This document shows positions 16,187-40,656 of a stretch of DNA of 40,656 nucleotides, piece by piece. The stretch covers positions 1 to 40,656 of the IMG/VR virus record IMGVR_UViG_3300025668_000792; one strand, written 5' to 3'. Under the pieces are notes generated by a model. The model was not told the origin of the DNA. It made no database searches and was given only the letters and a program-made list of their open reading frames with translations. This DNA comes from a virus. The first letter of the stretch is position 1. Every line of letters starts with the position of its first letter. Made by a program: the position numbers and the translations under genes.

Positions 16187-16187
16187 T

Positions 16188-18266: not shown

Positions 18267-18288
18267 ATCCTATTACAATGGGGTTATT

Positions 18289-19373: not shown

Positions 19374-19379
19374 CAACGG

Positions 19380-19408: not shown

Positions 19409-19440
19409 AGATCTTATATAGAATCAGTCTGGAGAATATT

Positions 19441-25062: not shown

Positions 25063-25362
25063 GTGCCAGCAGTAATAAGAGCTGGGATTGATAGTCATAT
25101 TGGACATTTCAGTACGACTCCAAACCCTTCACATAAAACTAAATACGTAGTCGCAGGACAAGGCAAGGTTACCGCAGAAGGTGGCCTTGCCGTTACTACT
25201 GGAGGATCCACAGCTTGTGGCGATGATGCAGTAGGTGGATCCTCAAAAGTAACTGCAGGTGGATACGCTGTTCATAGAACTGGTGATGCCACGAGCGGGC
25301 ATGGAAGTTGGTTTGCAAATGCTGCAGATACTGGCTCTACCAAGGTTACTGCCGGCGGATAA
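25063..25362 (+). CDS. PAAR-domain baseplate spike tip (T4 gp5.4-like)
   Basis: 99 residues from GTG 25063; the overlapping ATG at 25061 closes after four codons. PAAR features are MPAVIRAGIDSHIGHFSTTP with the metal-binding His residues, GGSTACGDDAVGGSS, and YAVHRTGDATSGHGSW. The conserved His and Cys residues bind the metal at the point of the cone that caps the gp5 spike and pierces the outer membrane. Glycine-turn repeats (KVTAEGG, KVTAGGY, KVTAGG) replace the usual NVFVNG. Repeated Gly turns fit the PAAR cone. Confidence 0.88.
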   Translation: MPAVIRAGIDSHIGHFSTTPNPSHKTKYVVAGQGKVTAEGGLAVTTGGSTACGDDAVGGSSKVTAGGYAVHRTGDATSGHGSWFANAADTGSTKVTAGG

Positions 25363-25370: not shown

Positions 25371-25604
25371 ATGGCAAATCCTGATTACGCAACACTCTTA
25401 GCCCAATATGCTGCTGAAACTGATCCAGCGGCCAAAGCAGCTTTGCTTGCACAAATAGAAGTTATCAACGAGCCATTAACAGAAGCAGAAAGAGAATTGT
25501 TTGAATACACAGCCTTTGACTATATAGAATATAACCCAGGCTATAACAACGAATTTAAATCATATGTTGGAGTGTATTATAACGACGATGGAGACAATAC
25601 CTAA
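25371..25604 (+). CDS. Small virion-region protein, function unknown
   Basis: 77 residues from ATG 25371 (RBS AGGA). MANPDYATLLAQYAAETDPA then helical KAALLAQIEVINEPLTEAER, and an aromatic acidic C-terminus. It overlaps the fiber gene by one base. The position between PAAR and fiber suggests a small structural or assembly protein, with no family recognised. Confidence 0.65.
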   Translation: MANPDYATLLAQYAAETDPAAKAALLAQIEVINEPLTEAERELFEYTAFDYIEYNPGYNNEFKSYVGVYYNDDGDNT

Positions 25605-28531
25605 TGGCTATCACGACAAGAAGATCTAAAGGTTCGTCGTTAACATATAACGAAATGGACGATAACTTTGACGCTATTGCTCCGCGTACAAGTAATACTG
25701 GGGCTGTTCAAGTTCCAGCCGGTACTACAACAGAAAGAACGTCGTCACCCATACTAGGTGAATTTAGATATAACACATCATTAAATATTTTTGAAGGTTA
25801 TCAGAATGGAGCTTGGCAAGCTTTTGCTTCAGGAGCTGGTGGTGAAGTAAATCAAAACGCCTTTTCAGAATTTACTGTTTCTGGCCAAACAACTATCTCG
25901 GCGTCTTCGGCAACTGACAGCTTTGAGATAATAGCCGGAACTGGAATTACTCTTACTACTGACGCAGTAGCTGGATCGGTAACGATAACTGGAACAGCTG
26001 GAAACACAGACTTTAATTCTCTTACAAACATACCTACAACCATAGCAGATTATGGAATTACTGATGCGTTTGACGGAGATTATTCAAACCTTGCCAATAC
26101 ACCGTTTATTCCAGCAAATACATCTAATCTTGTTAATGACTCTGGATTTATAACTAGTTATACTGAAACAGATCCAACTGTTCCTTCCCACGTAAAATCA
26201 ATTACAGTATTAGAAAAAAGCCAATGGAATACAGCTTACGGGTGGGGTAACCACGCAGACGCCGGATATGCTACTCAAGTAAATGCAGAAACTGATCCTG
26301 TGTTCTCGGCATCAGCTGCATCTGCAATCGCCATCGCTGACATAACAAATTGGAATGAAGCTTATGGTTGGGGCGACCATGCTAATGCCGGGTATTTGAC
26401 CACGGCTCCTTCAGAGTCGAATGACTTATCTGCAACCGTAACTTGGGTCACAGTCCCAGATCAATATATTTCAAACACGTCAGTTTTACAACACCTCGGA
26501 GACTTATCAATTACCGAGTCCCAAATTAGCGATTTTGGTGTTTATTTAACGGCAAATTCAATACCTCAAGAAACCGATCCAGTTTTTATTGCACACACTG
26601 CTTATAATATTGCAGATAGCCAAGGCTTTCTTTATAATGATGGATCTGGCAATTGGTCTTATGGAAATCCTGGCGGAACAGGTGAAGTTAACGATTTATC
26701 TTCAGTTGTTACTTGGGATATTGTTCCAGATGAATATATTTCATCAACTTCGGTCACTCAGTACCAAGCTAATTTAACAATAACAGAATCTCAAATTTCT
26801 GACTTAGGTACTTACATATCTTCTGAGTCTGATCCAATATTTTTAGCATCTCCGGTTGGTAGCGTTACTGCAAATACAGTATTAGAATGGAACCAAGCTT
26901 ATGCGTGGGGCGATCATGCAAATGCTGGTTATGTAGAAATAGAACTTGATCCAGTTTTTAGTGCTCACACTACATCTAGCATAGTAAATGGCGTAGGCTT
27001 TTTACGCAACGATGGTAATGGATCCTGGTCTTACGCAGCTTCAGCAGAATTAAATGACTTATCGCTTGCTGTTACTTGGGTCGTAGTTCCGGATGCATAT
27101 ATTTCAGCATCATCAATTCAACAGCATCAGGCGAATTTAACTTTTTCTACAAACCAAATATCTGATTTTGGAACTTATCTTGAAAATGAACTTGATCCTA
27201 TATTTTCAAACTCAGCAGCATTTGGTATTTCAAGCACAGACGTATCAAACTGGGACGCCGCGTATGCATGGGGCGATCATGCAAATGCTGGTTATGTTAC
27301 GAGCTTTCTCGAACAAGATCCATTTTTTACAGCACATACTTCTTCGTCAATTACTGACGGAACAGGATTTTTAACAAATGATGGGTCAGGTAATTGGTCT
27401 TATGATACTAACTCGTACATAACGAGCGAAACATCACATGCTGATGTAGTAGTTGACGGTGACTTTACGGCAGCCGGGCTTATGAAAACCGATGGCAGTG
27501 GCACCTATAGCACAGTTACTGATAACTCAAGTAATTGGAATACTGCGTATGGCTGGGGCGATCATAGTATACAAGGATATGCTGCTAGTGGTGATGTATT
27601 ATTAGACACAGACTTTGCAACAGCTGGGTTTATGAAAACTGACGGTAGCGGTACTTACTCGGTCGACAGTAATACGTATTTAACGAGTTATACAGAAACT
27701 GACACTCTTGATACCGTTACAGGTCGAGGCGCTACTACAACGAATGATATTGGTGTTGGTGATGTTACGATATCCTCTACTAGGCCTTATATCATATTAG
27801 ATGAAACTGATCAAACGCTCGATACTCTCATCGATCAATCTACTAATAAATTTAGAATGGGTTCGTTAAATGGACAGGTATTTGCACCATATTTAGAATT
27901 TGATTACACTAATCAACTTACACTGCTTCGCGGTATTGGTGCAAATGTAGGATTTAATTACAATAAAACAGATGGCACACTAATAGTGGGTTACGATGTT
28001 GGAAGCCGTGAGACTGCAGCGTTGATTGAAACATTCGACGATAGAACTAATCAATCCGTATTTACATTACATAGAAAAATGAGTAATGGAACCGGTTGGG
28101 CAGAAGAGCATTTAGTTAGTGGCCAAGATCAGACAACCGATGCAGGGGCATGCGTAATTACAATTGAGTTTGATAAAACCGGGGCCGCTGCTATCGATGA
28201 TATTATTCAAATAGGCGTAGACTTTCAAATAACAATGTCAAGAATTACTTCCGGAGGAACTACTTTTCTCGAAGGCGATTACATAACAGGAACTGCGACT
28301 GGTTATTTAAACCAAGCGAACGGTGACACCGGCAGGCTTGGAGAATTTAGCATTGTCGGTGTAGGTCTTTGTAATGATGTTACTGTAACAAACTTAGGAA
28401 CAGGTCTATATGGAATTACAATAACTGTAGATTACGATGCAGACGGCAGATATAAAGATTTTACAGCAAGACTTAATATGGTATCTTCGACAAATGCGAA
28501 GTCTCCAGATGTATCAATGACATTTACATAG
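25604..28531 (+). CDS. Tail fiber protein with GWGDHANAGY repeats
   Basis: 975 residues. The N-terminus has the phage-fiber SSLTYNEMDDNFDAI segment, then a receptor-like GEFRYNTSLNIFEGYQNGAW module. The middle (~200-660) carries five W-N-x-AYGWGDHANAGY repeats alternating with at least three copies of NDLS-x-VTW-x-VPD-x-YIS ... ESQISD(F/L)G-x-YL. Such repeats form trimeric beta-rich shafts in long tail fibers. The last ~250 residues are beta-rich and may be the host-binding tip. It may be the proximal fiber joined to the propeller protein downstream, or a separate fiber. No chaperone gene lies next to it. Confidence 0.8.
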   Translation: MAITTRRSKGSSLTYNEMDDNFDAIAPRTSNTGAVQVPAGTTTERTSSPILGEFRYNTSLNIFEGYQNGAWQAFASGAGGEVNQNAFSEFTVSGQTTISASSATDSFEIIAGTGITLTTDAVAGSVTITGTAGNTDFNSLTNIPTTIADYGITDAFDGDYSNLANTPFIPANTSNLVNDSGFITSYTETDPTVPSHVKSITVLEKSQWNTAYGWGNHADAGYATQVNAETDPVFSASAASAIAIADITNWNEAYGWGDHANAGYLTTAPSESNDLSATVTWVTVPDQYISNTSVLQHLGDLSITESQISDFGVYLTANSIPQETDPVFIAHTAYNIADSQGFLYNDGSGNWSYGNPGGTGEVNDLSSVVTWDIVPDEYISSTSVTQYQANLTITESQISDLGTYISSESDPIFLASPVGSVTANTVLEWNQAYAWGDHANAGYVEIELDPVFSAHTTSSIVNGVGFLRNDGNGSWSYAASAELNDLSLAVTWVVVPDAYISASSIQQHQANLTFSTNQISDFGTYLENELDPIFSNSAAFGISSTDVSNWDAAYAWGDHANAGYVTSFLEQDPFFTAHTSSSITDGTGFLTNDGSGNWSYDTNSYITSETSHADVVVDGDFTAAGLMKTDGSGTYSTVTDNSSNWNTAYGWGDHSIQGYAASGDVLLDTDFATAGFMKTDGSGTYSVDSNTYLTSYTETDTLDTVTGRGATTTNDIGVGDVTISSTRPYIILDETDQTLDTLIDQSTNKFRMGSLNGQVFAPYLEFDYTNQLTLLRGIGANVGFNYNKTDGTLIVGYDVGSRETAALIETFDDRTNQSVFTLHRKMSNGTGWAEEHLVSGQDQTTDAGACVITIEFDKTGAAAIDDIIQIGVDFQITMSRITSGGTTFLEGDYITGTATGYLNQANGDTGRLGEFSIVGVGLCNDVTVTNLGTGLYGITITVDYDADGRYKDFTARLNMVSSTNAKSPDVSMTFT
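26220..27600 (+). repeat. In-gene GWGDHANAGY repeat array
   Basis: Five copies of the W(N/D)-x-AY(G/A)WG(D/N)H(A/S) unit start near 26223, 26352, 26889, 27250 and 27537. Between them are 'NDLS ... ITESQISD' units near 26420, 26692 and 27050. Nucleotide identity among copies is high at gcttatg-tggggcgatcatgcaaatgctgg, which may allow recombination. Confidence 0.7.
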
Positions 28532-28543: not shown

Positions 28544-31500
28544 ATGGCAATGAAAAGAAAAATAGACGGTAACGTTGAGATTACTGGCACATTAAATGAT
28601 CACACTATTCCAGCCGGAACAGGTACATTAGCACTTACAAGTGATATTACCACGACCGGCATAGAACTAGATGTTACTAATAGCGGTGATCAATTGATTA
28701 TCCAATCTAATGATACTGGATACCCAGAGCTTCTTTTAACGCAACCAGAACTTGTAAATTCTAACGCAAACGGACCAAAGATTACTCTTGAAAAGATTTC
28801 TTATGATAGTATTAACTCAACGCGAAATGGCGATGAACTCGGAAGAATAGATTTTAAAGGACACAGAAATGGTAACGTAGATCAGGTTTACGGAAGTATC
28901 ATTGGCATAAGTGCTGTTGATAATAACCCAGGACCTGGTGGCTGGATAGAATTTGAAGTTTCTGATATGAATGAAAATTCAAATGAAAAAATGGTAACTA
29001 TTTTTGGCGGAACTTCATCTAATCAATTTGCCCAAGGCCTTAGGATTGATCGTGGTAACTTGTGGTTAGCACCTTATTCAACATACACCGGCTCAATAAT
29101 TTTAGAAGGAAGTACACACGACCTAACAATAAGACCTACCGGTACAGAAACTTCAGGTGCTAACTTATTGATACCTCGTGAAGGTGGTACTGTAATAACA
29201 ACTAATAGTATAAATGATTACACTTCTGATTTGGCTTCTCCGGTTACTATACAACTTGATGCAGATGCAGTTAGTGGTGCTACATTAAATCTTTATCATA
29301 ATAGTGCTACACCTGCTGATGAAGATATTCTCGGTAGAATTAATTTTAACGGAGAAAACTCTGCTTCGGGTGAAGAGACTTTTGCGTATATACAAGCGCA
29401 CTCTAGTGACGTAACAAACACGAATGAAGATGGATATATTAAAATTGGTGGTCAGAAAGATGGCACTTTCAAGGTTTGGACAAATACTGGTTCTTTTACT
29501 AATGGTAGTGGTTTAGAGATTGTAACCGGAAATTTATACTTAAATGATATAACAGATGGAAATATTATTTTTGAAGGAAGCACCGACAACGGGTTTGAAA
29601 CTACGTTAACCGTTGAAGATCCGACTGCTGCACGAACAATTACATTGCCAGACAAAACAGGTACAGTTGCCTTAACATCAGATATTGGTGGATTGGTTAA
29701 CGTTTTATCATCAATAAATGTTGAAAATCCAACGCCTAAAGCCAGCGACGTTTTTGGGAATTCTGTTGATATATCTGGTGATTATATGATTGTAGGGGCA
29801 TACTTAGCAGACGGCTCTGGTAACGATAATGCAGGAAAAGCGTATATTTTTGATGTCCACACAGGCCATTTAATCCATACCTTAGATAATCCAAATGCTT
29901 TTAACACGTCAACTAGTGATAATTTTGGCCGAGCTGTAGGAATATCAGGCAATTATGCTGTTGTTGGTGCGCCGGGTGAAGATTCTTCTGGAAGCCTCGG
30001 CGCCGGTGTAGGTTATATTTTTAATGTAACAACTGGTGCCCTTATTCATACTGTTCAAAATCCAAACGCTTATAGTACTCCTGCTGCAGATAATTTTGGT
30101 AATTATATTGGAGTACATGGTAAATATTCTATATTTGGTTGTCCAAATGAAGACGATGCTGGCGGCTCTGGGTCAGGTAAAGCATATGTTATTAATAACG
30201 CAACCGGCGGGTTAGTCTATACATTTGATAACCCAAACGCGTTTGGTACTTCATTAAACGATAATTTTGGATCTAGTGTTGATATATCAGATAATTACGC
30301 TATCGTAGGCGCGCAATACGAAGACTTTGCATCAGCTGACAATAGTGGGCATGTATACGTGTTTGATCTAAGCACTGGATCGTTAGTTCACTCTAAAGCA
30401 AATCCAAACGCTTACGGTACAGTAACAAGTGATTATTTTGGATACGATGTCGCCATAGATGGTAATTATTTTGTAGTAGGCGCGGAAGGTGAATCCGACG
30501 TGAGCGGCACCGGATCAGGTAAAGCTTATGTGTTTGACACACAAAGTGGTGCATTACTTCACACCTTAGACAATCCAACTCCTTTTCCTGGTGATGCCTT
30601 CGGCCGACAGGTTGACATCTCTGGTAATTACACTATTGTATCAGCATATGGAGATAATACAACTAACAATTCAGGTGGCGCCGCTTATATCTTTAATTTA
30701 TCTACTGGCACATTAGCTGCAACTTTATTAAATCCAAATGTTGATCCAACTACTAATGCAGATGGGTTTGGTAATGCTCTTGCAATGTCAGGTGATAATA
30801 TTGTTGTAGGTTGTGAACAAGAAGATTCATCTGGGGCTACTAACAGCGGTTACGCTTTTCTGTATAACATAAGTGTTAATCCATATACCTACACACCTTA
30901 CGAAATTTCTACTTTTGCTACGGGCAGCGGCGGTAGCACTTATACTAATAGTGATGTCGACTCGCATTTAAACGCAGGTAGTGCAGGAACAAATGAAGTT
31001 TTAAGCTGGGATGGAGCAGATTATGATTGGGTAGCTCAGAGTACCGGCGGCGGAGCCCCAAGTGTTACTGCTACATTACTTCGAACTATAGATAACCCAA
31101 GCGCTGGCGGAAGTACTGATGACTTTGATGAGTTTGGCACGACTATAGCTATAAACGGCAATATAATCGCTGTTAGTGCGTACGGAGAGGAAGATCCGGA
31201 AACTGGTGAAACCCAGGCCGGCGTAGTTTATCTTTATGACGCAACTACTCACGAGTTACTTCATATAGTATTAAATCCTACGTGGTCAGGCATTACGACT
31301 GGAACACGAAACTTAGATAATGATGATACTAGGTTTGGTGGATTAGGTGAAAACGCAATGGATATATCTGGTAATTATATGATTGCCGGTGCTAAAAGCG
31401 CTGATGCGCCGATAAATGCTTCCGGTGTAGCCTATATTTTTGACATAACATCTGGTAAATTATTGCACGTTTTAACAAACAATACCGGCGCGGCATCAAA

Positions 31501-34500
31501 CGAGCTGATGGGTCATACGACTGTTATTGACGATAATCTCGCAGCTGTAAGTGTTTCGCAAGATGGCACTGGCGGATCTGTAATGGTTTATGAAGTTTCT
31601 ACGGGAACAAGAATTCGTAACATCCCAAATCCAAATCCTCAATCTGGTATTGGAGGTTTATTTGGTGAAGGGATGACACTTTCAAAAGGTCGCCTTGCGA
31701 TTTGGGCAAATTGGTACGATGGCAACAGCGATCCTCAAGGTAGAGTTTACATATATGATCCTATAACTGGTGAATTACTTCACACACTTGAAAATCCAGT
31801 GCAATCTTCTGCGAATGATAGGTTTGGTGAATGGATGCACATGGATGGAAACTACTTAGCAGTAGGTGTTCCAGAATATCTAGCACCTGCCGATAGAGGT
31901 AGAGTTTATATTTACAATGTTAACTCTGGAGCTCTTATACACACTTTAGAAAATCCTACAGGTATTGATGGCGATCATTTTGGAATGGGTATTAGTGTAT
32001 CTGGTAGTTTTGTTGCAGTTGGCGCTTATGCTTCTGATACTTCCGGCAGTAACGCTGGTTCAGCCTATATTTTTGATTTAGTCAGCGGTGATTTAGTTGA
32101 AACTATTGAAAATCCAAACGCGTTTAACACGTCTAGTAGTGATCTATTTGGTAGCCGGGTTTCTTTATCTGGAAATAGATTAATAGTAAATGCTAATGGA
32201 GAAGATACTGATAGTTCAACCGGGCGCAATTCGGGTAAAGTTTATTCATTTTATTTGGCAGGTGTACCTCCTTATGTGCCTAGCGGAGAACAAACTAAAC
32301 AATTAACTGCAGCAGCAACTACAAGAGGTTATTCAAGATTTGATTTAGAGCACGCTGTGGCAAATCCAAACCCGCTGGGCGATTCAACTGTCCCGGGATT
32401 TAACAATTTTGGTAAGGTCGTAGATATATCAGGTGATTATTTTGTAGCTGGCGCCATGTCCGAAAGTCGAGCATATATTGGTAGTGCTAAAACAGGTAAA
32501 ATTTTACACATTTTAAATAATCCAAATATTAATGATACCTCGCTTTCTGCGACTGGTGATCAATTTGGAAGTAGCGTAGCAATTTCTGGCAACTATTGTG
32601 CAATATCGGCAATGGCGGAAGATCCAAACGTAAATAACGTTGCTAGTGACGCTGGGGCAATTTATATTTTCAACGTTATTACTGGAGCATTAGTCCATAC
32701 TTTAGTTCCGAGAGTAATTTTTGAAGCAGGTAATAATACTGATTTAAGTTTAGGTGGTGAAGGACATGGTCTTGCAATGGACGGAAGATATTTAGTCGCA
32801 GGTTCATATAATATCACTAGCGGAACTAATGGAAGAGTTTTTGTATATGACGTATTTACTGGAACCCTGCTTTATACTGTTGAAGATCCTAAGGTGAATG
32901 GCTTTGGCTTAACGCAAAATCACTTTGGATATAGTGTCGACATTCAAGGTAATCATTTTATTGTTGGTGCATATACAGATGATCTTGGAACTGGGTATTC
33001 AGAAGGTGTAGCTCATGTTTATGACTTGGATAGTGGTAGGTTATTGCATACATATTCTCATCCATCAAGTACATCAACAGGCGAATTCGGCGTAGAGGTA
33101 GCAATTTCTGGCGACTACGCAGTTGTTAGTAACCCAACATCAACCGTATTCCAAGATAGCACCATTATTGCTAAAGGTCTACTTCGTGTTTATAGCATAA
33201 AAACTGGAAAATTGCTGCGTGAGATTGGTAACCCTCTTGTGTTTAATCCTCGAGGTGGTTATGCAAATCCTACTTTTACATCTTCAACATACGGCGGGGC
33301 ACCAGTGTTTGATGGCGAAACAGGAAATAGTAGTAAATACGACAACCCTTCTGAAATCAATTTTGGTTATAATCTAAAAATGGATGGTGACTATTTAATT
33401 GTCGGTGCCGATGAAGAAGATTCGGGCCGTGATCTCGGAGGTGGCGCAGCATACGTTTATGATGTAAGAAGTGGAGACCTTGTTTATAAACTTAAAAATC
33501 CAAGTTTTGCACTTAGCTCAGACGACACCGACAGCGAAGTCGATAAGTTCGGCGAAACATGCGCAATAAGCGGAAATCGTATTATAATTGGTGCAACTGG
33601 TGCTGTAGTTGGTGATGAAAGTGGTGCCGGTGCAGTTTACATATTTAAGCATGGAGGTATGCCAAATTATTCATATAATGCTCAGGAAACCGCTTCTTTT
33701 ACTGCAGGCTCATCTACTAATGGCCACGTTGTTATGGGAAATCAAGTTATTCGTAAAGAAAGCTTTGCTGGCGTTACGACTGAATTATCTAAGAAATATG
33801 GGCCTATGTATCTCGCGAATGTTCAGCTTCAAATTACCGTTAATACTATAAGACCAGATTTTGACGGCCTGTTGCAAACTATAAATCCTAACTCAGGTAA
33901 CCCTGGATATGGTATGACGCCGTTTTTTGCAAAAGCTTTGTCGTTCAGTCCAAGAACTAATAGACGCTATCTTCACGCTAAAGCCAATTGGCCGTCAGGC
34001 GATACTAGCAGTGAAATGAATAACACAGATACAGATAGAGGTATTCAAGATATTAAAATAGGATATGATGGAGTCAATGGAACAGAAAATACCGTAGTAG
34101 TTCATTGTAAAAATCACGGTTTTACGAGTGCCGAGATTGTTATAATATCAAACCCTGGATCAGTAAGCAATTTAAAAGGTATCTCGTATTATGCCGGATT
34201 GATAGACGATGATACTTTTATACTATATACAGACTCTGGCTTAACTACACAATTAAATGGTCAATTTTTGCCTCTTTTTTCTTCCTATTCAGGATCTGAA
34301 TATTGTAGAGGTAACAGTACTAATGCTTGGGCTTCAGCCTCTGGTGCGATTGATTGGCTTGATTTTCAAAATGATTTTAATGATGGTAATTATGACAAAG
34401 ACGATAGGGTTTACGCAGATAATGATGGAACATATGATGCGTTTTATGAACTTCAAGCAGAAGTACAAAAGGATTTTCATTTATACGCTGATCATATAAT

Positions 34501-34771
34501 AGATAGTTTACAGTCTGGCAGCACAACTTATTCTGATCGTTCTTTGTTTGAAAATAATCCAGGATTAGGTGATTATACTGGTGCAGGCGATATTACTGTT
34601 GGTAATGGAAATGATGAACAAAATATAACTATAAAAAGTCCTGTAATATTTCCGCCTTTTACTACAGCGGAAAGAGATGCAATACGCAATAAACAAAATG
34701 GCATGGTAGTTTTTAATACTTCAACTGTCAAATTACAATTATATAATGCAGGAGCTTGGACTGATTTATAA
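28544..34771 (+). CDS. Giant fiber/adhesin with three seven-bladed FG-GAP-like propellers
   Basis: 2075 residues. Residues 1-380 are fiber-like beta repeats (GTLALTSDI, GTVITTN, GTVALTSDI). About 385-1711 hold 21 repeats of the pattern DxFGxxVxISGxYxIVGAxxED...GxAYIFDxxTGxLxHTLxNPN, an FG-GAP/integrin-like beta-propeller blade. They fall into three sets of seven, each ending in a Pro/Tyr-rich linker (VNPYTYTPYE, VPPYVPSGEQ, MPNYSYNAQE). The C-terminus has a helix-poor globular part, a probable coiled section (FYELQAEVQKDFHLYADHII) and the fiber-tip ending TTAERDAIRNKQNG...W. Likely a host-surface adhesin at the fiber tip. RBS AGGA before ATG 28544. Confidence 0.82.
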   Translation: MAMKRKIDGNVEITGTLNDHTIPAGTGTLALTSDITTTGIELDVTNSGDQLIIQSNDTGYPELLLTQPELVNSNANGPKITLEKISYDSINSTRNGDELGRIDFKGHRNGNVDQVYGSIIGISAVDNNPGPGGWIEFEVSDMNENSNEKMVTIFGGTSSNQFAQGLRIDRGNLWLAPYSTYTGSIILEGSTHDLTIRPTGTETSGANLLIPREGGTVITTNSINDYTSDLASPVTIQLDADAVSGATLNLYHNSATPADEDILGRINFNGENSASGEETFAYIQAHSSDVTNTNEDGYIKIGGQKDGTFKVWTNTGSFTNGSGLEIVTGNLYLNDITDGNIIFEGSTDNGFETTLTVEDPTAARTITLPDKTGTVALTSDIGGLVNVLSSINVENPTPKASDVFGNSVDISGDYMIVGAYLADGSGNDNAGKAYIFDVHTGHLIHTLDNPNAFNTSTSDNFGRAVGISGNYAVVGAPGEDSSGSLGAGVGYIFNVTTGALIHTVQNPNAYSTPAADNFGNYIGVHGKYSIFGCPNEDDAGGSGSGKAYVINNATGGLVYTFDNPNAFGTSLNDNFGSSVDISDNYAIVGAQYEDFASADNSGHVYVFDLSTGSLVHSKANPNAYGTVTSDYFGYDVAIDGNYFVVGAEGESDVSGTGSGKAYVFDTQSGALLHTLDNPTPFPGDAFGRQVDISGNYTIVSAYGDNTTNNSGGAAYIFNLSTGTLAATLLNPNVDPTTNADGFGNALAMSGDNIVVGCEQEDSSGATNSGYAFLYNISVNPYTYTPYEISTFATGSGGSTYTNSDVDSHLNAGSAGTNEVLSWDGADYDWVAQSTGGGAPSVTATLLRTIDNPSAGGSTDDFDEFGTTIAINGNIIAVSAYGEEDPETGETQAGVVYLYDATTHELLHIVLNPTWSGITTGTRNLDNDDTRFGGLGENAMDISGNYMIAGAKSADAPINASGVAYIFDITSGKLLHVLTNNTGAASNELMGHTTVIDDNLAAVSVSQDGTGGSVMVYEVSTGTRIRNIPNPNPQSGIGGLFGEGMTLSKGRLAIWANWYDGNSDPQGRVYIYDPITGELLHTLENPVQSSANDRFGEWMHMDGNYLAVGVPEYLAPADRGRVYIYNVNSGALIHTLENPTGIDGDHFGMGISVSGSFVAVGAYASDTSGSNAGSAYIFDLVSGDLVETIENPNAFNTSSSDLFGSRVSLSGNRLIVNANGEDTDSSTGRNSGKVYSFYLAGVPPYVPSGEQTKQLTAAATTRGYSRFDLEHAVANPNPLGDSTVPGFNNFGKVVDISGDYFVAGAMSESRAYIGSAKTGKILHILNNPNINDTSLSATGDQFGSSVAISGNYCAISAMAEDPNVNNVASDAGAIYIFNVITGALVHTLVPRVIFEAGNNTDLSLGGEGHGLAMDGRYLVAGSYNITSGTNGRVFVYDVFTGTLLYTVEDPKVNGFGLTQNHFGYSVDIQGNHFIVGAYTDDLGTGYSEGVAHVYDLDSGRLLHTYSHPSSTSTGEFGVEVAISGDYAVVSNPTSTVFQDSTIIAKGLLRVYSIKTGKLLREIGNPLVFNPRGGYANPTFTSSTYGGAPVFDGETGNSSKYDNPSEINFGYNLKMDGDYLIVGADEEDSGRDLGGGAAYVYDVRSGDLVYKLKNPSFALSSDDTDSEVDKFGETCAISGNRIIIGATGAVVGDESGAGAVYIFKHGGMPNYSYNAQETASFTAGSSTNGHVVMGNQVIRKESFAGVTTELSKKYGPMYLANVQLQITVNTIRPDFDGLLQTINPNSGNPGYGMTPFFAKALSFSPRTNRRYLHAKANWPSGDTSSEMNNTDTDRGIQDIKIGYDGVNGTENTVVVHCKNHGFTSAEIVIISNPGSVSNLKGISYYAGLIDDDTFILYTDSGLTTQLNGQFLPLFSSYSGSEYCRGNSTNAWASASGAIDWLDFQNDFNDGNYDKDDRVYADNDGTYDAFYELQAEVQKDFHLYADHIIDSLQSGSTTYSDRSLFENNPGLGDYTGAGDITVGNGNDEQNITIKSPVIFPPFTTAERDAIRNKQNGMVVFNTSTVKLQLYNAGAWTDL
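29698..30906 (+). repeat. Propeller 1 (seven FG-GAP-like blades)
   Basis: Seven blades by hand count, beginning at DVFGNSVDISGDYMIVGA and ending at DGFGNALAMSGDNIVVGC. Each blade is ~52-60 residues. Repeat wording is closest to the consensus here, and the NPNAFNTS unit recurs in propeller 2. Confidence 0.7.
31061..32280 (+). repeat. Propeller 2 (seven FG-GAP-like blades)
   Basis: Seven blades, from DEFGTTIAINGNIIAVSA to DLFGSRVSLSGNRLIVNA. Spacing of blades and the closing linker mirror propeller 1. One blade (ELMGHTTVIDDNLAAVSV) has lost the FG pair. Confidence 0.65.
32330..33676 (+). repeat. Propeller 3 (seven FG-GAP-like blades)
   Basis: Seven blades, from NNFGKVVDISGDYFVAGA to DKFGETCAISGNRIIIGA. 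It has two longer inserted loops and the blade with GEGHGLAMDGRYLVAGS lacks the FG pair. The most diverged of the three. Confidence 0.62.
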
Positions 34772-34774
34772 TAG

Positions 34775-34803
34775 TTGACATTCAACTAAATGTGTGTTAC
34801 TAT
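34775..34803 (+). promoter_or_regulatory. Early promoter of the exonuclease operon
   Basis: AGTTGACATT with TTGACA 34775-34780, 17-nt spacer, TACTAT 34798-34803. GAATCA is at 34810-34815. It restarts transcription directly after the giant fiber gene, with no visible terminator between. Confidence 0.8.
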
Positions 34804-34828
34804 AAGATAGAATCAAAAGGACTATATA

Positions 34829-35497
34829 ATGTTTAATCATGTAGAGCATGGCGTCGTGCTTCCAAAATTAACGCGTAATACAACAGAATCTGGCCGTAAG
34901 TATTTTACTCCCGAAGGTAATGCTTATCCATCAATTACAACTGTTCTTGGTGTGCTTAGCAAAGAAGGTATTATTGCTTGGCGAAAACGAGTTGGAGAAG
35001 AGGAAGCTAACAAGATTTCTCGTCAAGCTGCAACCCGTGGAACAGCAGTGCACAAACTTGCTGAAGATTATTTAGATAATGTTGAAGGCTGGAATAAAAA
35101 TGCAATGCCAGCTAATATTGCGTCGTTTAATGATCTTAAAACAATTTTAGATGAACGCTTAGATAATGTTTGGTTTCAAGAAGAATTCCTATATAGCGAT
35201 AGACTAAAGACTGCTGGCCAAGTTGACTGTATTGCAGAGTTTGATGGTCAGCTTTCTATTGTTGATTTTAAAACAAGCCGGAAACCAAAGAAAGCTGAAT
35301 GGATTACAAGCTACTTTATTCAAGCATCTTTTTATGCTGCAGCGTTTCTTGAGCGTACAGGAATTCCTATTAAGCAAGGAGTTATTCTTATTACTGTTGA
35401 TGGCTCAGAGCCTCAAGTTTTTAAAGTTAATACGTATGATTATCTCGAACACTTCCTGTCAGTTCGTAATAAATATGCGGAATTGAACGAAAAGTGA
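34829..35497 (+). CDS. PD-(D/E)XK exonuclease (RecB/MGME1-like)
   Basis: 222 residues. The nuclease core is recognised by ATRGTAVHKLAEDYL (conserved His), EEFLYSDRLKTAGQVDCIAE and LSIVDFKTSRKPKK, which contains the D-x(n)-(D)FK active site, then the helix FIQASFYAAAFLERTGI. This resembles the single-strand or RecB-type exonucleases found in marine T4-like phages. It may degrade host DNA or process recombination ends. RBS AAAAGGA. Strong family match, exact polarity unknown. Confidence 0.87.
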   Translation: MFNHVEHGVVLPKLTRNTTESGRKYFTPEGNAYPSITTVLGVLSKEGIIAWRKRVGEEEANKISRQAATRGTAVHKLAEDYLDNVEGWNKNAMPANIASFNDLKTILDERLDNVWFQEEFLYSDRLKTAGQVDCIAEFDGQLSIVDFKTSRKPKKAEWITSYFIQASFYAAAFLERTGIPIKQGVILITVDGSEPQVFKVNTYDYLEHFLSVRNKYAELNEK

Positions 35498-35508
35498 AAG
35501 GTACGTGA

Positions 35509-35724
35509 ATGTATATTCTTGAATTAAAAGTTGACTTAAAAGAAACAGAAATAGAAAATTTAGATGAGCTTGTAGAAAACTTAGATTGTGAAATGGAGCT
35601 AGTCGATGAAGACGACGAGGTTTATCAATTTTCATCAGTTAGCTTTGCTGGATTACAAGAACTTGGCGAGCAAATTATACAAGACGACCCTACTACTCTA
35701 ATAGAATGGGTGACTGATTTGTAA
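35509..35724 (+). CDS. Small acidic hypothetical protein
   Basis: 71 residues, about a third Asp or Glu (ENLDELVENLDCEMELVDED). MYILELKVDLKETEIENLDE at the N-terminus could form a beta-alpha unit; the C-terminus is LQELGEQIIQDDPTTLIEW. Co-transcribed with the exonuclease, 11 nt downstream. Such small acidic early proteins often inhibit or mimic DNA-binding targets, but this is only a possibility. Confidence 0.65.
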   Translation: MYILELKVDLKETEIENLDELVENLDCEMELVDEDDEVYQFSSVSFAGLQELGEQIIQDDPTTLIEWVTDL

Positions 35725-35741
35725 TTAAATCAAATTAACGG

Positions 35742-35770
35742 TTGACATTGCTACTCAAATAGTTTATATT
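35742..35770 (+). promoter_or_regulatory. Early promoter of the 35802 operon
   Basis: AACGGTTGACATTG with TTGACA 35742-35747, 17-nt spacer, TATATT 35765-35770. TGATTC (35770-35775) starts on the last -10 base, and GAATCA is at 35794-35799. Confidence 0.88.
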
Positions 35771-35800
35771 GATTCTATAAGGTAAACCAAAAGGAATCAA
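35769..35800. promoter_or_regulatory. Operator-like dyad after the -10 box
   Basis: TTGATTC (35769-35775) and GAATCAA (35794-35800) are perfect inverted repeats with an 18-nt gap, the same gap as the dyad at 16149. The gap sequence TATAAGGTAAA-C-AAAAG is nearly identical too. The left arm precedes the expected transcript start. Confidence 0.5.
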
Positions 35801-35801
35801 A

Positions 35802-36101
35802 ATGACAAAGTTCAACAAAACAGACTTCAACTACCACGGTGGATATCTTATGTACACCGGCGATTACGAAGGTCGTCCAGTATACGAAGACAGTGAACGG
35901 GTTCACCCTTCAAATGTTGGTCGTGGCATTGATCTTTTTATTGCTCGGTTCAAGTACCGCGGAAGCCCTATCAAAATGGGAGCTTTCAAAAAGTTCCTTA
36001 TTAACAACTTCACAGTTGAAGAGTATGCTGCAGCTCGTAAGGTTGAAGGAATTGAAGGTTCACCACTCAACATCTTACAATCAAAAGGATTTGCCGTATG
36101 A
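35802..36101 (+). CDS. Hypothetical protein (early)
   Basis: 99 residues, first gene after its promoter: MTKFNKTDFNYHGGYLMYTG, DYEGRPVYEDSERVHPSN, then a helix with KFLINNFTVEEYAAARKVEG. Basic and aromatic-rich. No family recognised. Its stop overlaps the next ATG (ATGA). Confidence 0.72.
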   Translation: MTKFNKTDFNYHGGYLMYTGDYEGRPVYEDSERVHPSNVGRGIDLFIARFKYRGSPIKMGAFKKFLINNFTVEEYAAARKVEGIEGSPLNILQSKGFAV

Positions 36102-36667
36102 ATATATTTGTATTATCTGAAGAGCCGCGAGAAGCGGCTCAGATGGTTTGCGACAAACACTGTAGTAAAATGATTATTGAAGCAGCTCAAATGCTGTCTA
36201 CCGCGCATCGTATGCTCGATGGGTGGACTGAAAAACGTCCATCTAAATCTGGTAAACGTATGATTAATTATTGGGTTCATCCTAATAATAACCTTGAAGA
36301 AACGCTTTATAAAGCGGTACACCATGGCCATCCTTGTACAGTATGGACTATGAAATCAAGAGATAATTATCTATGGCATTACGAGCACTTTCTAGGGCTT
36401 TCTGATGAATTCCAGTTACGGTATAATAAGACTCATATGACAACGGATAAGCTTAAAGAAGTACTATCAGCGACTCCTGCTTCAATTCCAGATACTGGTT
36501 TAACTGAGTTTCCTCAAGCTATGAATCATTTTCCAAACTGTAAAGTACCTGGCGATCCAATACAAGCTTATCGTAATTATTATCATGCTGCTAAAGACTT
36601 TGCTAAGTGGCAAAAAGGCAGAACTGCTCCACATTGGTGGAAAGGATTTCAAGGTTACGCTGCATGA
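36098..36667 (+). CDS. Conserved T4-like hypothetical protein
   Basis: 189 residues. MNIFVLSEEPREAAQMVCDK, HCSKMIIEAAQMLSTAHRML, AVHHGHPCTVWTMKSRDNYL and CKVPGDPIQAYRNYYHAAKD define a protein I recall from many T4-like marine and other phages, with conserved Cys/His positions and an aromatic end (WQKGRTAPHWW). Function unknown; the pattern of conserved His, Cys and Trp suggests an enzyme. Starts in an ATGA overlap and ends in an ATGA overlap. Confidence 0.78.
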   Translation: MNIFVLSEEPREAAQMVCDKHCSKMIIEAAQMLSTAHRMLDGWTEKRPSKSGKRMINYWVHPNNNLEETLYKAVHHGHPCTVWTMKSRDNYLWHYEHFLGLSDEFQLRYNKTHMTTDKLKEVLSATPASIPDTGLTEFPQAMNHFPNCKVPGDPIQAYRNYYHAAKDFAKWQKGRTAPHWWKGFQGYAA

Positions 36668-36990
36668 GATATATCATATTAGATTATGATTATGGAATTT
36701 TTCTGGGAACACACACTAACAAGGGGTTTGTAGATAACCCTAGAGGTGCTGTTGCTTTATGGTCAAGCGAAAATTATTTTAGTTTAACTAGAGCTTTTTC
36801 TTTTGGTACTAAAACAGAAGCTCATTTGTTTATAGAAAGTTTTTTGCATGATTTTCCCGGTGCATTTGTTACTGGTGTACACACTGATGAACAATACATT
36901 GATGTAGTAGACTTAATCAAAGCAGGTTTACATAATTTTACCTTTGACATGATAGATGGAATACATATGCCAAATGAAACAATTCACTAA
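36664..36990 (+). CDS. Hypothetical protein
   Basis: 108 residues from ATG 36664, in an ATGA overlap with the previous stop; the in-frame upstream ATG (36607) lies inside that gene. MRYIILDYDYGIFLGTHTNK, then LTRAFSFGTKTEAHLFIESF and a C-terminal GIHMPNETIH. Beta-rich start, then helices. No known motif. Confidence 0.68.
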   Translation: MRYIILDYDYGIFLGTHTNKGFVDNPRGAVALWSSENYFSLTRAFSFGTKTEAHLFIESFLHDFPGAFVTGVHTDEQYIDVVDLIKAGLHNFTFDMIDGIHMPNETIH

Positions 36991-37018
36991 TTAATTTGTT
37001 TTAATTTCAAATTAACGG

Positions 37019-37047
37019 TTGACATTTGCTTTAAAATGGTTTATATT
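37019..37047 (+). promoter_or_regulatory. Early promoter of the 37079 gene
   Basis: AACGGTTGACATTT with TTGACA 37019-37024, 17-nt spacer, TATATT 37042-37047. TGATTC (37047-37052) follows directly, as in the 16125, 17065 and 35742 promoters, but the right arm GAATCA is absent here. Confidence 0.88.
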
Positions 37048-37078
37048 GATTCTATAAGGTAAATAAGGAAACTATATC

Positions 37079-37372
37079 ATGACTAATCAAGCTGTAGCAT
37101 ATTGGATCGAAACTCCTCTTACAAAAGTAAACGAGCTGATTGCTCAATACCACTCATTTGCTAAAGAAAATGATGATCTTGCTGAAATGTATGATGAAGA
37201 TGCAAATGACTTTATGCAAGCACTTTCTTACTTCCGTCAATCAGATACCGAAACACTTGCACAACATGTTCAATTCATGGATACTTCACCTCGCGAAGAA
37301 TTAGTTCAAGCATTTTACTCTGACTGTGGCAATGATTTTGTTGAGTCAGTTCTTGGCTATACAGTGAAATAA
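37079..37372 (+). CDS. Hypothetical acidic helical protein
   Basis: 97 residues: MTNQAVAYWIETPLTKVNEL, a long acidic helical body (FAKENDDLAEMYDEDANDFM), and SDCGNDFVESVLGYTVK. No family recognised. Single-gene transcription unit between two strong promoters, typical of host-takeover accessory genes. Confidence 0.7.
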   Translation: MTNQAVAYWIETPLTKVNELIAQYHSFAKENDDLAEMYDEDANDFMQALSYFRQSDTETLAQHVQFMDTSPREELVQAFYSDCGNDFVESVLGYTVK

Positions 37373-37375
37373 CGG

Positions 37376-37404
37376 TTGACATTCCAATAGAATCAGTATA
37401 TATT
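37376..37404 (+). promoter_or_regulatory. Early promoter of the DUF932 operon
   Basis: AACGGTTGACATT with TTGACA 37376-37381, 17-nt spacer, TATATT 37399-37404. GAATCA lies in the spacer (37390-37395), at the same offset as in the 12022 promoter. Confidence 0.88.
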
Positions 37405-37439
37405 AGTTATATCAAATCAAATCAAATAGGAAATATATC

Positions 37440-38393
37440 ATGGCACATGAATTAGAAATTGTAAACGGTCAAGCTCAAATGGCATACCGCGCTTCACAAG
37501 GCAAACCTTGGCATGGTCTCGGTGTACCAGTTGGAGATGATATGACTCCCCAACAAATGATGGAAGTTGCAGGCCTTGATTGGCAAGTAGAAAAAGTTGA
37601 TAACTTTATTCGCTATAAAGGTGACAACATAGCTACAGGCCAACAGTCGTTAGTACGTTCAACTGACGGTAAAATCCTTACTAATGTTGGTAAAGATTGG
37701 AACCCTGTTCAAAACAAAGAAGCTTTTGATTTTTTTACTGACTTTGTAAGTGCTGGCGATATGGTTATGGATACGGCAGGATCGCTCAGAGATGGTCAAA
37801 TTGTATGGGCTTTAGCCGATGTAAAAGACGGTTTCTCACTTTTTAATGGTGACGAAGTTCGTGGTTACATGCTTTTCTCAAATCCACATCAATATGGTAA
37901 AGCAATAGATGTTAAGTTCGTAATGGAACGTGTCGTATGCAACAACACTTTGGCTGTGGCTCTCAACGAAAAGCACCAACCATCTGTACGTGTAAGCCAC
38001 CGTTCAGTATTCGATCCAGAAACTGTAAAACAAGCACTAGGCTTAGCACACAATAAAGTTGAAATCTTTAAAGAAGCTGCTGAGTTTCTTGGTTCAAAGC
38101 GTTACACCGATGAAAAACTTACTGAGTTCTTTGGTGTTGTTTTTGGAAAATCAACTAAAGAAAAAGAGCAACTAGCTCGCACTGCTAAACAAGCAATGGA
38201 TATTGTAGAAACACAACCAGGTAATGAATTTGCACCTGGTACTTGGTGGAATGCTTACAACGCTGTTACTTATATGACTAACCACGAGTTAGGTCGTTCT
38301 AAAGATAGCCGCATGTCTTCTGCTTGGTTTGGCGGAAACGCAACACGTAACGTCAAAGCACTTGACTTAGCATTGGAGATGGCTAATGGTTAA
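37440..38393 (+). CDS. DUF932 phage/plasmid-like protein
   Basis: 317 residues. The family pattern is clear: ASQGKPWHGLGVPVGDDMTP, DWQVEKV, SLVRSTDGKILTNVGKDWNP, VQNKEAFDFFTDFV, GRI-like RDGQIVWALADV, VVCNNTLAVAL and the C-terminal GTWWNAYNAVTYMTNHELGR. DUF932 proteins occur on phages and plasmids; their role is unknown. Strong RBS and own promoter suggest high early expression. Its end overlaps the short membrane peptide gene. Confidence 0.88.
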   Translation: MAHELEIVNGQAQMAYRASQGKPWHGLGVPVGDDMTPQQMMEVAGLDWQVEKVDNFIRYKGDNIATGQQSLVRSTDGKILTNVGKDWNPVQNKEAFDFFTDFVSAGDMVMDTAGSLRDGQIVWALADVKDGFSLFNGDEVRGYMLFSNPHQYGKAIDVKFVMERVVCNNTLAVALNEKHQPSVRVSHRSVFDPETVKQALGLAHNKVEIFKEAAEFLGSKRYTDEKLTEFFGVVFGKSTKEKEQLARTAKQAMDIVETQPGNEFAPGTWWNAYNAVTYMTNHELGRSKDSRMSSAWFGGNATRNVKALDLALEMANG

Positions 38394-38469
38394 AATTAAA
38401 GAAGTAATTTTCTGGGGAGTATGGCTTGGCCTGCTCCTCATTCTAGTCGATCCATTAGGGATTATTTAA
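38386..38469 (+). CDS. 27-residue membrane peptide
   Basis: MVKIKEVIFWGVWLGLLLIL then VDPLGII: three Lys or basic residues followed by one transmembrane helix. ATG 38386 overlaps the DUF932 end by 8 nt and the stop overlaps the next ATG by one base (TAATG). GGAGATGG upstream can serve as RBS. Too short for most gene callers; the tight coupling on both sides argues that it is real. Confidence 0.55.
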   Translation: MVKIKEVIFWGVWLGLLLILVDPLGII

Positions 38470-38828
38470 TGATAAATCAGTATTTACTTGTTTCTTGTTT
38501 ACACCTTGGAAGTGTAATTGGTTTTCAATATACTACAAATTCATATTTTTTGTTAATCAGCATGGCACTGTTAGCCTTTAATTCTTTAACATTTTTAAAT
38601 GCAGTATCAATGATTTTAAGTCCAGGTGATATTGAAATCCAGTTTGATGATGATCCTACTCGTCTTAAATTAGTGCAACAAGCTACAGCGTGGATGGCGA
38701 TGTACTTTATATATAATGAGGGTTACGAAATGTTTGTAGGGGCAGCGCTAACTGTTTCTTTAATCACAACATTTGCTGTAATCAGAACATGGTTATATTT
38801 TTATCAAGAAGGAGATGAAGAAGAATGA
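38469..38828 (+). CDS. Multi-span membrane protein
   Basis: 119 residues from ATG 38469. Transmembrane segments lie near residues 4-22 (QYLLVSCLHLGSVIGFQ), 25-48 (YFLLISMALLAFNSLTFL), 70-85 and 88-110 (MFVGAALTVSLITTFAV). The acidic C-terminus (YQEGDEEE) overlaps the next gene (ATGA). A frame extension to 38421 exists but falls inside the peptide gene and lacks RBS. Function unknown; an inner-membrane modifier is possible. Confidence 0.65.
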   Translation: MINQYLLVSCLHLGSVIGFQYTTNSYFLLISMALLAFNSLTFLNAVSMILSPGDIEIQFDDDPTRLKLVQQATAWMAMYFIYNEGYEMFVGAALTVSLITTFAVIRTWLYFYQEGDEEE

Positions 38829-39253
38829 AAATCTTGATATTTGGCTTACCTGGATCGGGCAAAACCTGGTTAGCCGAAGCACTACAAAAGCGCTTAAATT
38901 GCGCTTGGTTTAATGCAGATAAAATTCGTGAAATGGCAAACGACTGGGAATTCAGTGAGGCTGCTCGGTTACGTCAAGCTTATCGTATGAAAGGAATTGC
39001 TGATTACGAAAAGGAAATGAACCGAACTGTTATTTGCGATTTTGTTTGTCCACTTGAAGAAACTCGTGATATCTTTGATGCTGACTATACAGTATGGATG
39101 GATACCATTAAAGAAGGTCGCTTTGGTGATACAAATAAAATGTTTGAGAAACCTTCAATAGTAAATTATCACGTATCTAAATGGTATGATGATACAGATG
39201 AATCTCTAGCCAATGCGGTAGAACGGCACATAAGGATGGAACATAATGTTTGA
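38825..39253 (+). CDS. Adenylylsulfate kinase-like P-loop kinase
   Basis: 142 residues. Walker A GLPGSGKTWLAEAL (Lys13), then the acceptor-type WFNADKIREMANDW, the strand TVICDFVCPLEETRDIFD, and YTVWMDTIKEGRFGDTNKMF, a layout like APS kinase (CysC) trimmed to the minimal fold. CysC converts APS to PAPS with ATP. It is shorter than CysC (~200) and may use another substrate. It overlaps the nucleotidyltransferase by 8 nt, so the two probably act together. Confidence 0.75.
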   Translation: MKILIFGLPGSGKTWLAEALQKRLNCAWFNADKIREMANDWEFSEAARLRQAYRMKGIADYEKEMNRTVICDFVCPLEETRDIFDADYTVWMDTIKEGRFGDTNKMFEKPSIVNYHVSKWYDDTDESLANAVERHIRMEHNV

Positions 39254-39653
39254 TTATAAAAAGCCAACAGTACAGATGTTGGGAAGATGGCAGCCATGGC
39301 ACGATGGACATACAGAGCTATTTAAACGAGCACATGCTTTCACAGGGCAAGTTGTTATCATGGTACGTGATGTATTTAACTTTGACGGTGATGCAGGTGA
39401 TGGTCGTACCGCTGTGCAAGATGATAACCCTTTTGGTATTATTGATGTAATCGCAAATATTGAAAAGGGATTAGCAGAGCACGGTTTTCAAAACGGACAT
39501 GAATATTTAATTCTTGAAGTGCCAAACATTGTAGACATTAGTTATGGACGGGGTGTAGGATATACATTTACCGAGCACGATTTAGGTAAAGACGTTCATG
39601 ATATTAGTGCAACTAAAATCCGTAAACAAATGAGGGAAGAAGGAAAACTTTAA
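39246..39653 (+). CDS. Nucleotidyltransferase (HxGH family)
   Basis: 135 residues: MLGRWQPWHDGHTELFKRA with the HxGH pair His19 and His22, VVIMVRDVFNF, YGRGVGYTFTEHDL and a C-terminal DISATKIRKQM (IS-x-T-x-IR-type motif). It transfers AMP or CMP from NTP to a phosphate acceptor, in the NMNAT/TagD/CoaD group; ATP-sulfurylase activity is not supported by motif spelling. Coupled to the kinase gene before it and the GapR-like gene after it (TAATG). Confidence 0.8.
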   Translation: MFDYKKPTVQMLGRWQPWHDGHTELFKRAHAFTGQVVIMVRDVFNFDGDAGDGRTAVQDDNPFGIIDVIANIEKGLAEHGFQNGHEYLILEVPNIVDISYGRGVGYTFTEHDLGKDVHDISATKIRKQMREEGKL

Positions 39654-39991
39654 TGCAAAGTCCAGTTTTTGAAAAGGGCTACCCAGATTATGACGCCGTA
39701 AACCGTATGGGCGATTTGAAATTTACAACAGCAGGAGATATGCTAATGCAACAAGAAGCCGACAACACCGCAGCAAATGAAATCCGTTCTTTTATTGAAC
39801 GCCTTGAAACGCTTGAAGCTGAAAAAAGCGAAGTAATGGACCAAATGAAAGATGTATTATCTGAAGCAAAAGGTCGTGGATATGAAACAAAAGTTTTGAA
39901 AAAGATTGTTGCTATCCGTAAACGTAATCGTGATGATGTTGAAAACGAAAATGCAATGACTGAAATGTATATGAATGCTTTAGGAATGTAA
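39653..39991 (+). CDS. gapR: GapR (DUF2312) homologue, nucleoid-associated protein
   Basis: 112 residues. The C-terminal ~75 residues match DUF2312/GapR: NEIRSFIERLETLEAEKSEV then MDQMKDVLSEAKGRGYETKV, LKKIVAIRKRN, and the ending MYMNALGM. GapR is an alphaproteobacterial protein that clamps on over-twisted, AT-rich DNA ahead of replication and transcription forks, aiding topoisomerases. The ~40-residue N-terminus is unusual (MQSPVFEKGYPDYDAVNRMG). It may help the phage manage supercoiling, or compete with host GapR. Strong pointer to an alphaproteobacterial host. Confidence 0.85.
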   Translation: MQSPVFEKGYPDYDAVNRMGDLKFTTAGDMLMQQEADNTAANEIRSFIERLETLEAEKSEVMDQMKDVLSEAKGRGYETKVLKKIVAIRKRNRDDVENENAMTEMYMNALGM

Positions 39992-40149
39992 TGATACGTT
40001 GGTATGATTATCTAGCAGCATTTTTAGCAGCAGACCTTATACTAACTGCTGCATTTTCTATCCCTTGGATAGGTTTTGTCGTAGCTTATGCTATGTATGA
40101 ATACGGTTGGGAAGCATACTGCCAATACAGATTAAAAATGGAAAGATAA
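39991..40149 (+). CDS. Small membrane protein (52 aa)
   Basis: MIRWYDYLAAFLAADLILTA, then AFSIPWIGFVVAYAMYEYGW: two hydrophobic stretches with aromatic caps, suggesting two transmembrane helices. A basic end (QYRLKMER) follows. ATG 39991 overlaps the previous stop (TAATG). The MIRWYDWLAAFLAAD-like pattern is familiar from T4-like marine phages. The stop is followed by the terminator at 40147. Confidence 0.65.
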   Translation: MIRWYDYLAAFLAADLILTAAFSIPWIGFVVAYAMYEYGWEAYCQYRLKMER

Positions 40150-40174
40150 AAAAAGGGGAGCAATTAAGCTCCCC
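40147..40174. terminator. Terminator between convergent genes
   Basis: GGGGAGC (40155-40161) and GCTCCCC (40168-40174) form a 7-bp stem with a 6-nt loop. Upstream TAAAAAAA gives a T-tract on the minus strand, so it is a strong intrinsic terminator for the capsid gene. In the plus direction the tail AGTTTATTT is weaker. Confidence 0.85.
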
Positions 40175-40220
40175 AGTTTATTTGTATGGAACGGTTAACC
40201 CGTCCTTCTTGTTATTCGTA

Positions 40221-40656
40221 TTAGAACAAGTTAGATACACGAACTCGTCTGTAATACTCGTTAACGTCTCTAGTAAGAGCACCATTACCTTGGGCAGAAC
40301 CCTCAGCAAATGGGTTAGCAACCATGCCGTAACGAGTTTTGAACCCGATTTTTGGCTGGAAGCTGTTCTCACCAACTGCACGAACCATTTGTAATGGTAC
40401 ATATGGGCAGTAGAAGAGGCCTGCATCGAATGCGCTAGAACCTTTATAGCCTACAACTAAGTAGTTGCTTCCGGCATATGGATCAATGTACACTCTGTAG
40501 CGACCGTTAAGCACACCAGCGAAGGTGTTGCCTGTGTCGTCTACTTGCAAGTTGTTGGAGTTAAGAGCTGGTGTGTAATCAAGTACACCGGCCATTTGCA
40601 ATGCTGATGCAACGTCAGAAGAACAGATAACCATGTTACCTTTACCACGACGTGTA
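40221..40656 (-). CDS. 23: Major capsid protein gp23, C-terminal part (5' partial)
   Basis: The gene reads from the right edge to a stop at 40221-40223, so about 144 residues of its C-terminus are present. TRRGKGNMVICSSDVASALQ at the edge, then YLVVGYKGSSAFDAGLFYCP, YVPLQMVRAVGENSFQPKIG and FKTRYGMVANPF are near the T4 gp23 C-terminal wording. This forms the hexameric lattice of the head. It is the only clear minus-strand gene; transcription therefore converges with the 37-40 kb early block. Confidence 0.95.
   Translation of the reverse strand, partial: TRRGKGNMVICSSDVASALQMAGVLDYTPALNSNNLQVDDTGNTFAGVLNGRYRVYIDPYAGSNYLVVGYKGSSAFDAGLFYCPYVPLQMVRAVGENSFQPKIGFKTRYGMVANPFAEGSAQGNGALTRDVNEYYRRVRVSNLF

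Follow-up and report, generated by a model that had tools for sequence, protein, structure and literature searches.

Three FG-GAP_2 Propellers in a Tail-Fibre-Type Phage Protein and a Candidate Diversifying Face in Their Viral Family

Introduction

In abundant uncultured phages, the parts that bind receptors can mostly not be read from the sequence. The locus considered here lies in the IMG/VR virus record IMGVR_UViG_3300025668_000792. The stretch analysed (positions 1 to 40,656 of the record, 40,656 nucleotides, hereafter the window) contains on its plus strand, at 28544–34771, an open reading frame (ORF) of 2075 aa, for which the original prediction proposed three seven-bladed, integrin-like propellers joined to a fibre-type base and tip and a role in receptor binding. 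Here, we find that the triple propeller is real and that its rings, referred to as P1, P2, and P3, belong to a viral family in which one face of the propeller is hypervariable. With a probability of roughly 0.7, we read the product as a tail-fibre-type structural protein of a large uncultured T4-like phage whose propellers are host-recognition surfaces with a face that diversifies in the family.

In the mechanism that we propose, three closed seven-bladed FG-GAP_2 propellers would be held between the fibre-type base and tip, and each would recognize the host cell by binding ligands on the face formed by its 4-1 and 2-3 loops. In the viral family, where the cassette is carried in different fibre and baseplate proteins, the scaffold is nearly fixed, and six hypervariable residues per blade (approximately 42 per ring) on that face would diversify under selection. 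The window protein would accordingly be located in the virion tail, its variable face would bind the host surface, and the presence of three rings would provide multivalency or several specificities.

Repeat Number and Fold

The ORF matches the Pfam model FG-GAP_2 (PF14312) with an E value of 4.6e-108 and a score of 353.7 bits (curated cut-off 23) in 18 separate stretches, and 13 blades exceed the cut-off singly. Repeat alignment by hand and with MAFFT adds three weaker blades near aa 989, 1040, and 1408 that were missed by Pfam, resulting in a total of 21 blades, and a blade profile likewise recovers 21. The ungapped self-comparison (autocorrelation) of residues 380–1720, which had been proposed as a check together with structure prediction, has a peak at a lag of 57 (z = 10.5). 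The rings P1, P2, and P3 measure 408, 408, and 450 aa, close to the spacing of about 405, 405, and 450 residues originally estimated, and the Pro/Tyr linker said to close each group of seven is present at all three ring ends (NPYTYTPY in P1, VPPYVPSG in P2, and MPNYSYNAQ in P3).

The protein was modelled with AlphaFold in two pieces, residues 375–1262 and residues 1240–2075. The first model contains two rings of 28 strands each, corresponding to seven four-stranded blades, with the N-terminal edge of each ring supplying the strand that completes its last blade; the second model contains the third ring, again with 7 × 4 strands. Blade 7 lacks an outer strand of its own in every ring, and each ring is predicted to be a closed seven-bladed propeller. 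In the first model, the predicted local distance difference test (pLDDT) score is mostly 70–97 in the blades and mostly near 30 in the P1–P2 linker; in the second model, it is below 40 over most of the C-terminal 360 residues, where the prediction is unusable. A second IMG/VR contig, IMGVR_UViG_3300003583_000023 (L001), covers window positions 29824–40656 (10,833 bases) with five mismatches (99.95% DNA identity) and encodes this protein from a point inside blade 1 of P1 to the C-terminus, making an assembly artefact unlikely for the array from that blade onward. Together, the sequence alignment, the blade profile, the structural models, and the relatives described below confirm that the triple propeller in this fibre-type phage protein is real and that its blades had been counted correctly as three groups of seven.

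The description of the propellers as integrin-like held for the fold and failed for the repeat itself. In Foldseek searches against the PDB, integrin alpha chains are the top matches for both models, with a template modelling (TM) score of about 0.65 normalized by ring-only targets, whereas searches of the PDB by sequence alone retrieve mainly designed propellers and WD40 proteins. The integrin FG-GAP profile PF01839 has no matches to the window protein at E ≤ 0.001, and a relaxed motif search detected no calcium motif of the DxDxDGxxD type in the blades. We therefore refer to an integrin-like fold rather than a strict integrin repeat. Integrin alpha propellers (e.g., alpha5, PDB 4wk0), the best fold match in the PDB, share the seven blades of four strands each and the FG motif; however, the window protein is only 11–18% identical to them, has three rings in one chain, and occurs in the context of a viral fibre. 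Integrins bind their ligands on the upper face of the propeller, which corresponds to the face considered next.

Variable Positions of the Viral Blades

The consensus of the viral blades is DxFGxSVAISGNYAIVGAxxEDDAGGxxSGKAYIFNVTTGALVHTLDNPN. Six of its positions (2, 5, 19, 20, 27, and 28) are hypervariable, with an entropy of 3.05–3.76 bits compared with 2.47 for the next highest position. Each of 200 random half-splits of the loci ranks the same six on top and, therefore, their choice is independent of the data tested. The 293 blades carry 292 distinct six-residue combinations, in which Tyr makes up 17% of the residues and Asn, Ser, and Thr are also abundant. According to DSSP assignments for the modelled structure, positions 2 and 5 border the beginning of strand A in the 4-1 loop, whereas positions 19–20 directly follow strand B and positions 27–28 directly precede strand C in the 2-3 loop. 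In an antiparallel four-stranded blade, these two loops share one face. The turns on the opposite face, SGN and VTTG, are conserved.

Between the blades of one ring, the ratio of nonsynonymous to synonymous differences per site (pN/pS) is 1.37 at the six positions (95% bootstrap interval 1.27–1.48) and 0.33 in the scaffold (0.30–0.36; 53 rings in both cases), and hypervariable pN exceeds scaffold pN in all 53 rings. When blades of the same index are compared between close rings (26 blade pairs from six ring pairs, of which three are between contigs and three are paralogous within one contig), 79% of the hypervariable residues differ as opposed to 10% of the residues elsewhere. The receptor-binding role suggested originally thus finds backing in the hypervariable face of the viral family. 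A bacterial control, comprising five rings and too small to judge whether the pattern is specific to viruses, has a pN/pS of 0.89 versus 0.38. In the window protein, agreement with the viral consensus is 66%, 48%, and 51% at scaffold positions of P1, P2, and P3, respectively, and 24%, 14%, and 16% at the hypervariable positions, and on this comparison of residues the three rings are consistent with the family pattern.

Several points weigh against this interpretation. The pN/pS values are direct counts within rings or between a few close ring pairs rather than estimates from a tree-based codon model, and synonymous divergence is high in these comparisons. P2 and P3 are diverged members of the family (scaffold identity 0.48 and 0.51 vs. 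0.66 for P1) and, therefore, inherit the family signal rather than show it. Moreover, only one near-identical copy of the window protein is known, so that selection on this protein itself is not measurable.

Beta-propellers are often rigid platforms, and relatives of the rings also occur in baseplate-wedge proteins and as standalone ORFs, which would fit propellers that act as structural spacers or docking platforms within the tail instead of binding receptors. A docking face would, however, be expected to be conserved, whereas strong variability is here confined to one face (pN/pS 1.37), and that face differs even among close relatives. We consider a spacer or docking role improbable. As to the source of the variation, diversity-generating retroelements (DGRs) are known to diversify phage tail tips and could in principle replace ordinary mutation, recombination, and selection as the cause of the hypervariability. 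The codons argue otherwise: A or G is the last base of 29% of the hypervariable codons, unlike the NNY expected of AAY targets, and AAY accounts for only 11% of them. In addition, the variability extends across all seven blades, and no reverse transcriptase is encoded in the window record, itself a fragment. A DGR origin is, therefore, scarcely plausible, and we retain a host-recognition face diversified by ordinary means as the preferred reading.

A comparable design is found in a fungus. In the HNWD proteins (HET-D/HET-E) of Podospora anserina, the positions of the WD40 propellers under positive selection fall within the d-a loop and b-c turn of a single face (PMC1805685). Like the viral FG-GAP_2 family, these proteins combine a conserved repeat scaffold with an excess of amino acid change in the same two loops; they differ in that they are WD40 rather than FG-GAP proteins, function in allorecognition, and have near-identical repeats in concerted evolution, and we claim no homology.

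Probable Tail Context of the Protein

The flanks of the propellers resemble phage fibres. Within the N-terminal region, aa 181–379 resemble baseplate/fibre proteins of Pelagibacter phage HTVC008M, aa 234–339 resemble tail fibres of S-CREM2 and S-B68, and aa 334–377 match the tail fibre family phrog_38058. The P1–P2 linker (approximately aa 796–861) matches S-SSM7 gp9 and SIO1 gp6, and the last approximately 48 aa have a weak match (E 0.0019) to the C-terminus of the tail fibre phrog_30742. The fibre-type base and tip that had been postulated are, therefore, recovered by sequence matches at the N-terminus, in the linker and, weakly, at the C-terminus. In viral contigs, no relatives of the N- or C-terminus were found besides the duplicate contig L001. 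The ORF lies directly downstream of a phrog_9729 fibre gene and a PAAR-like gene in a tail cassette (table 1); the former is likely a partner in the same tail-tip cassette, and the PAAR-like protein is a possible tail-spike tip. These flanks and neighbours render a tail-fibre role well supported.

The same observations bear on the alternative that the protein is not part of the virion and instead is secreted or acts inside the cell as a host-modifying protein, for example a PQQ-like or lectin-like one. A weak PQQ_2 match (E 3.6e-11) and the standalone FG-GAP protein of Vibrio phage nt-1 would agree with such a function. FG-GAP_2 scores far above PQQ_2, however, and the fibre-type N-terminus, linker, and C-terminus as well as the upstream fibre gene argue for a virion protein, leaving a host-modifying function very unlikely.

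Distribution of Related Rings

With the three rings as queries, IMG/VR yielded 123 matching stretches, of which 80 were kept. Of the 71 blade runs in untruncated viral ORFs, including that of the window, 54 comprise exactly seven blades, six comprise 14, five comprise 21, and six have another number; 65 of the 71 are thus multiples of seven. Viral relatives are up to 56% identical to the window rings, whereas bacterial ones, sought in 84,980 genomes, are 28–38% identical, and a quick tree places most viral rings apart from the bacterial ones with a Shimodaira–Hasegawa-like approximate likelihood ratio test (SH-aLRT) value of 100. Rings are embedded in baseplate-wedge proteins (L039, L063) and in tail-fibre proteins (L049, L061), and standalone ORFs with propeller rings also occur. 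A 1313-aa protein with three rings (3 × 7), starting MAIKVKGTPVIDNSRN, is encoded at L033:8810-12748 on a T4-like contig with portal gp20 and sheath gp18. At L067:5195-16975, three consecutive genes of 21 blades (3 × 7) lie between glycosyltransferase and methyltransferase genes. Because L033 and L067 also encode three-ring proteins, three rings per chain are uncommon yet not unique. Two proteins (L041:6443-12178 and L089:8137-14205) have two seven-bladed rings each, with several hundred residues between them, and are alternative multi-ring layouts.

A comparison of the P1 ring with 50,697 records of cultured phages yielded only 16 matches, which are 25–31% identical. Gp054 of the cyanophage S-TIM5, annotated as a virion structural protein with one seven-bladed ring, and the FG-GAP protein of Vibrio phage nt-1 are likewise phage-encoded FG-GAP_2 propellers; compared with the window protein, they are 27–31% identical, have a single ring, comprise about 400 aa, and lack the fibre base and tip. 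The bacterial PF14312 proteins of Bacteroidota, Planctomycetota, and others belong to the same family by the curated cut-off and have mostly seven blades, some 14; apart from the low identity noted above, they differ in that many more of their scaffold positions vary. For FG-GAP proteins of MntV1, a prasinovirus, and of other large viruses of eukaryotes, a role in host attachment has been proposed, and few viral FG-GAP proteins were previously known, according to the accessible text of PMC11467894. MntV1 differs in being an algal virus rather than a tailed phage, and that text reports no variable face. In a partial coverage of the literature, we found no paper joining FG-GAP repeats with phage tail fibres or phage receptor binding.

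We lean slightly towards a broader proposal, namely that uncultured tailed phages of aquatic (marine and other) environments share a transferable, seven-bladed FG-GAP_2 receptor-binding ring that combines an almost constant frame with approximately 42 hypervariable, diversifying residues on one face and functions in the manner of antigen receptors or HNWD propellers. The ring would be inserted into fibre and baseplate proteins of various phages and multiplied to two or three copies per chain. A transferable ring with a diversifying face is a more interesting point than the blade count. If the proposal is correct, six variable positions per blade can be named, and specificity could be read from metagenomes and compared across phages. 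The ring would then join the lectin-fold DGR targets and the intertwined fibre tips as a further platform of phage diversification, and it would independently parallel the fungal HNWD propellers with their selected face.

Other arrangements of blades also occur. At L054:7946-13547 (also in L056 and L057), three consecutive ORFs each end in six to eight blade matches, and the third ring groups with bacterial, not viral, rings. The jumbo Sinorhizobium phage Phosso encodes a giant hypothetical protein (L181:4884-13987; record positions 57900–68978) with 38 blade-like stretches within the part read, and a 21-kb virion structural gene of Synechococcus phage S-MbCM6 (L180; record positions 50779–71847) embeds one FG-GAP-like ring.

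Relationship among the Rings

The spacing and the matched linkers had been taken originally as evidence that a whole propeller had been duplicated in tandem, a claim that the comparisons leave doubtful. The ring-end linkers are indeed similar, the true register of the rings is the best of 49 rotations when all core columns are counted, and the approximately unbiased (AU) test is compatible with a single P1–P3 clade, which is not rejected (p = 0.705). However, the in-register similarity of the rings, with p = 0.02 over all blades, is lost without blade 7 (p = 0.21) or without the D strand (p = 0.25). By BLAST, P1 shares 33% identity with P2 and 31% with P3, compared with as much as 55% with rings of other viruses. 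The latter outrank P2 and P3, which take ranks 86 and 90 in the list of P1 matches, and each of the three rings is more similar to rings from other viruses than to the rings adjacent to it. The blades within P1 are 43% alike, above their similarity to P2 or P3 blades. An unconstrained quick tree also scatters P1, P2, and P3, on long branches whose placement is not trusted. Judged from these sequence relationships, a recent duplication of a whole ring is unlikely, and the rings may descend from an ancient duplication or have been acquired separately.

Features and Other Genes of the Window

The coordinates of the protein and its neighbours are listed in table 1.

Table 1. Regions of the triple-propeller protein and adjacent tail genes (window coordinates)
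Feature	Position	Strand	Extent	Remarks
PAAR-like small protein	25063..25362	+		phrog_281
Upstream tail fibre gene	25604..28531	+	975 aa	phrog_9729, E 3e-68
Whole ORF	28544..34771	+	2075 aa	fibre-type protein, three FG-GAP_2 propellers
N-terminal fibre-type region	28544..29689	+	aa 1-382	
P1, seven blades	29690..30907	+	aa 383-788	FG-type blade starts at aa 404, 461, 518, 575, 632, 686, 742; nearest to other viral rings (up to 55%)
P1-P2 linker with fibre motif	30908..31045	+		low model confidence
P2, seven blades	31046..32266	+	aa 835-1241	FG-type blade starts at aa 864, 936, 989, 1040, 1094, 1146, 1202
Short P2-P3 linker	32267..32329	+		Pro/Tyr, then low-confidence predicted helix
P3, seven blades	32330..33688	+	aa 1263-1715	FG-type blade starts at aa 1289, 1341, 1408, 1461, 1515, 1607, 1669; long insert after blade 5
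C-terminal region	33689..34768	+	aa 1716-2075	without confident model

The window also encodes a T4-type primase with 47% identity to Synechococcus myoviruses, ribonucleotide reductase subunits, thymidylate synthase, PhoH, and exonucleases. For window positions 5000–20000, no close nucleotide relatives were found among cultured phages. Genes for an epimerase, a UDP-glucose dehydrogenase, an HldE-like protein, and a glycosyltransferase are located at 10167–11189, 13122–14290, and 20524–21477, and these sugar-nucleotide and glycosyltransferase genes possibly serve the modification of virion or host-surface sugars. The duplicate contig extends about 2.9 kb beyond the end of the window (L001:10834-13780).

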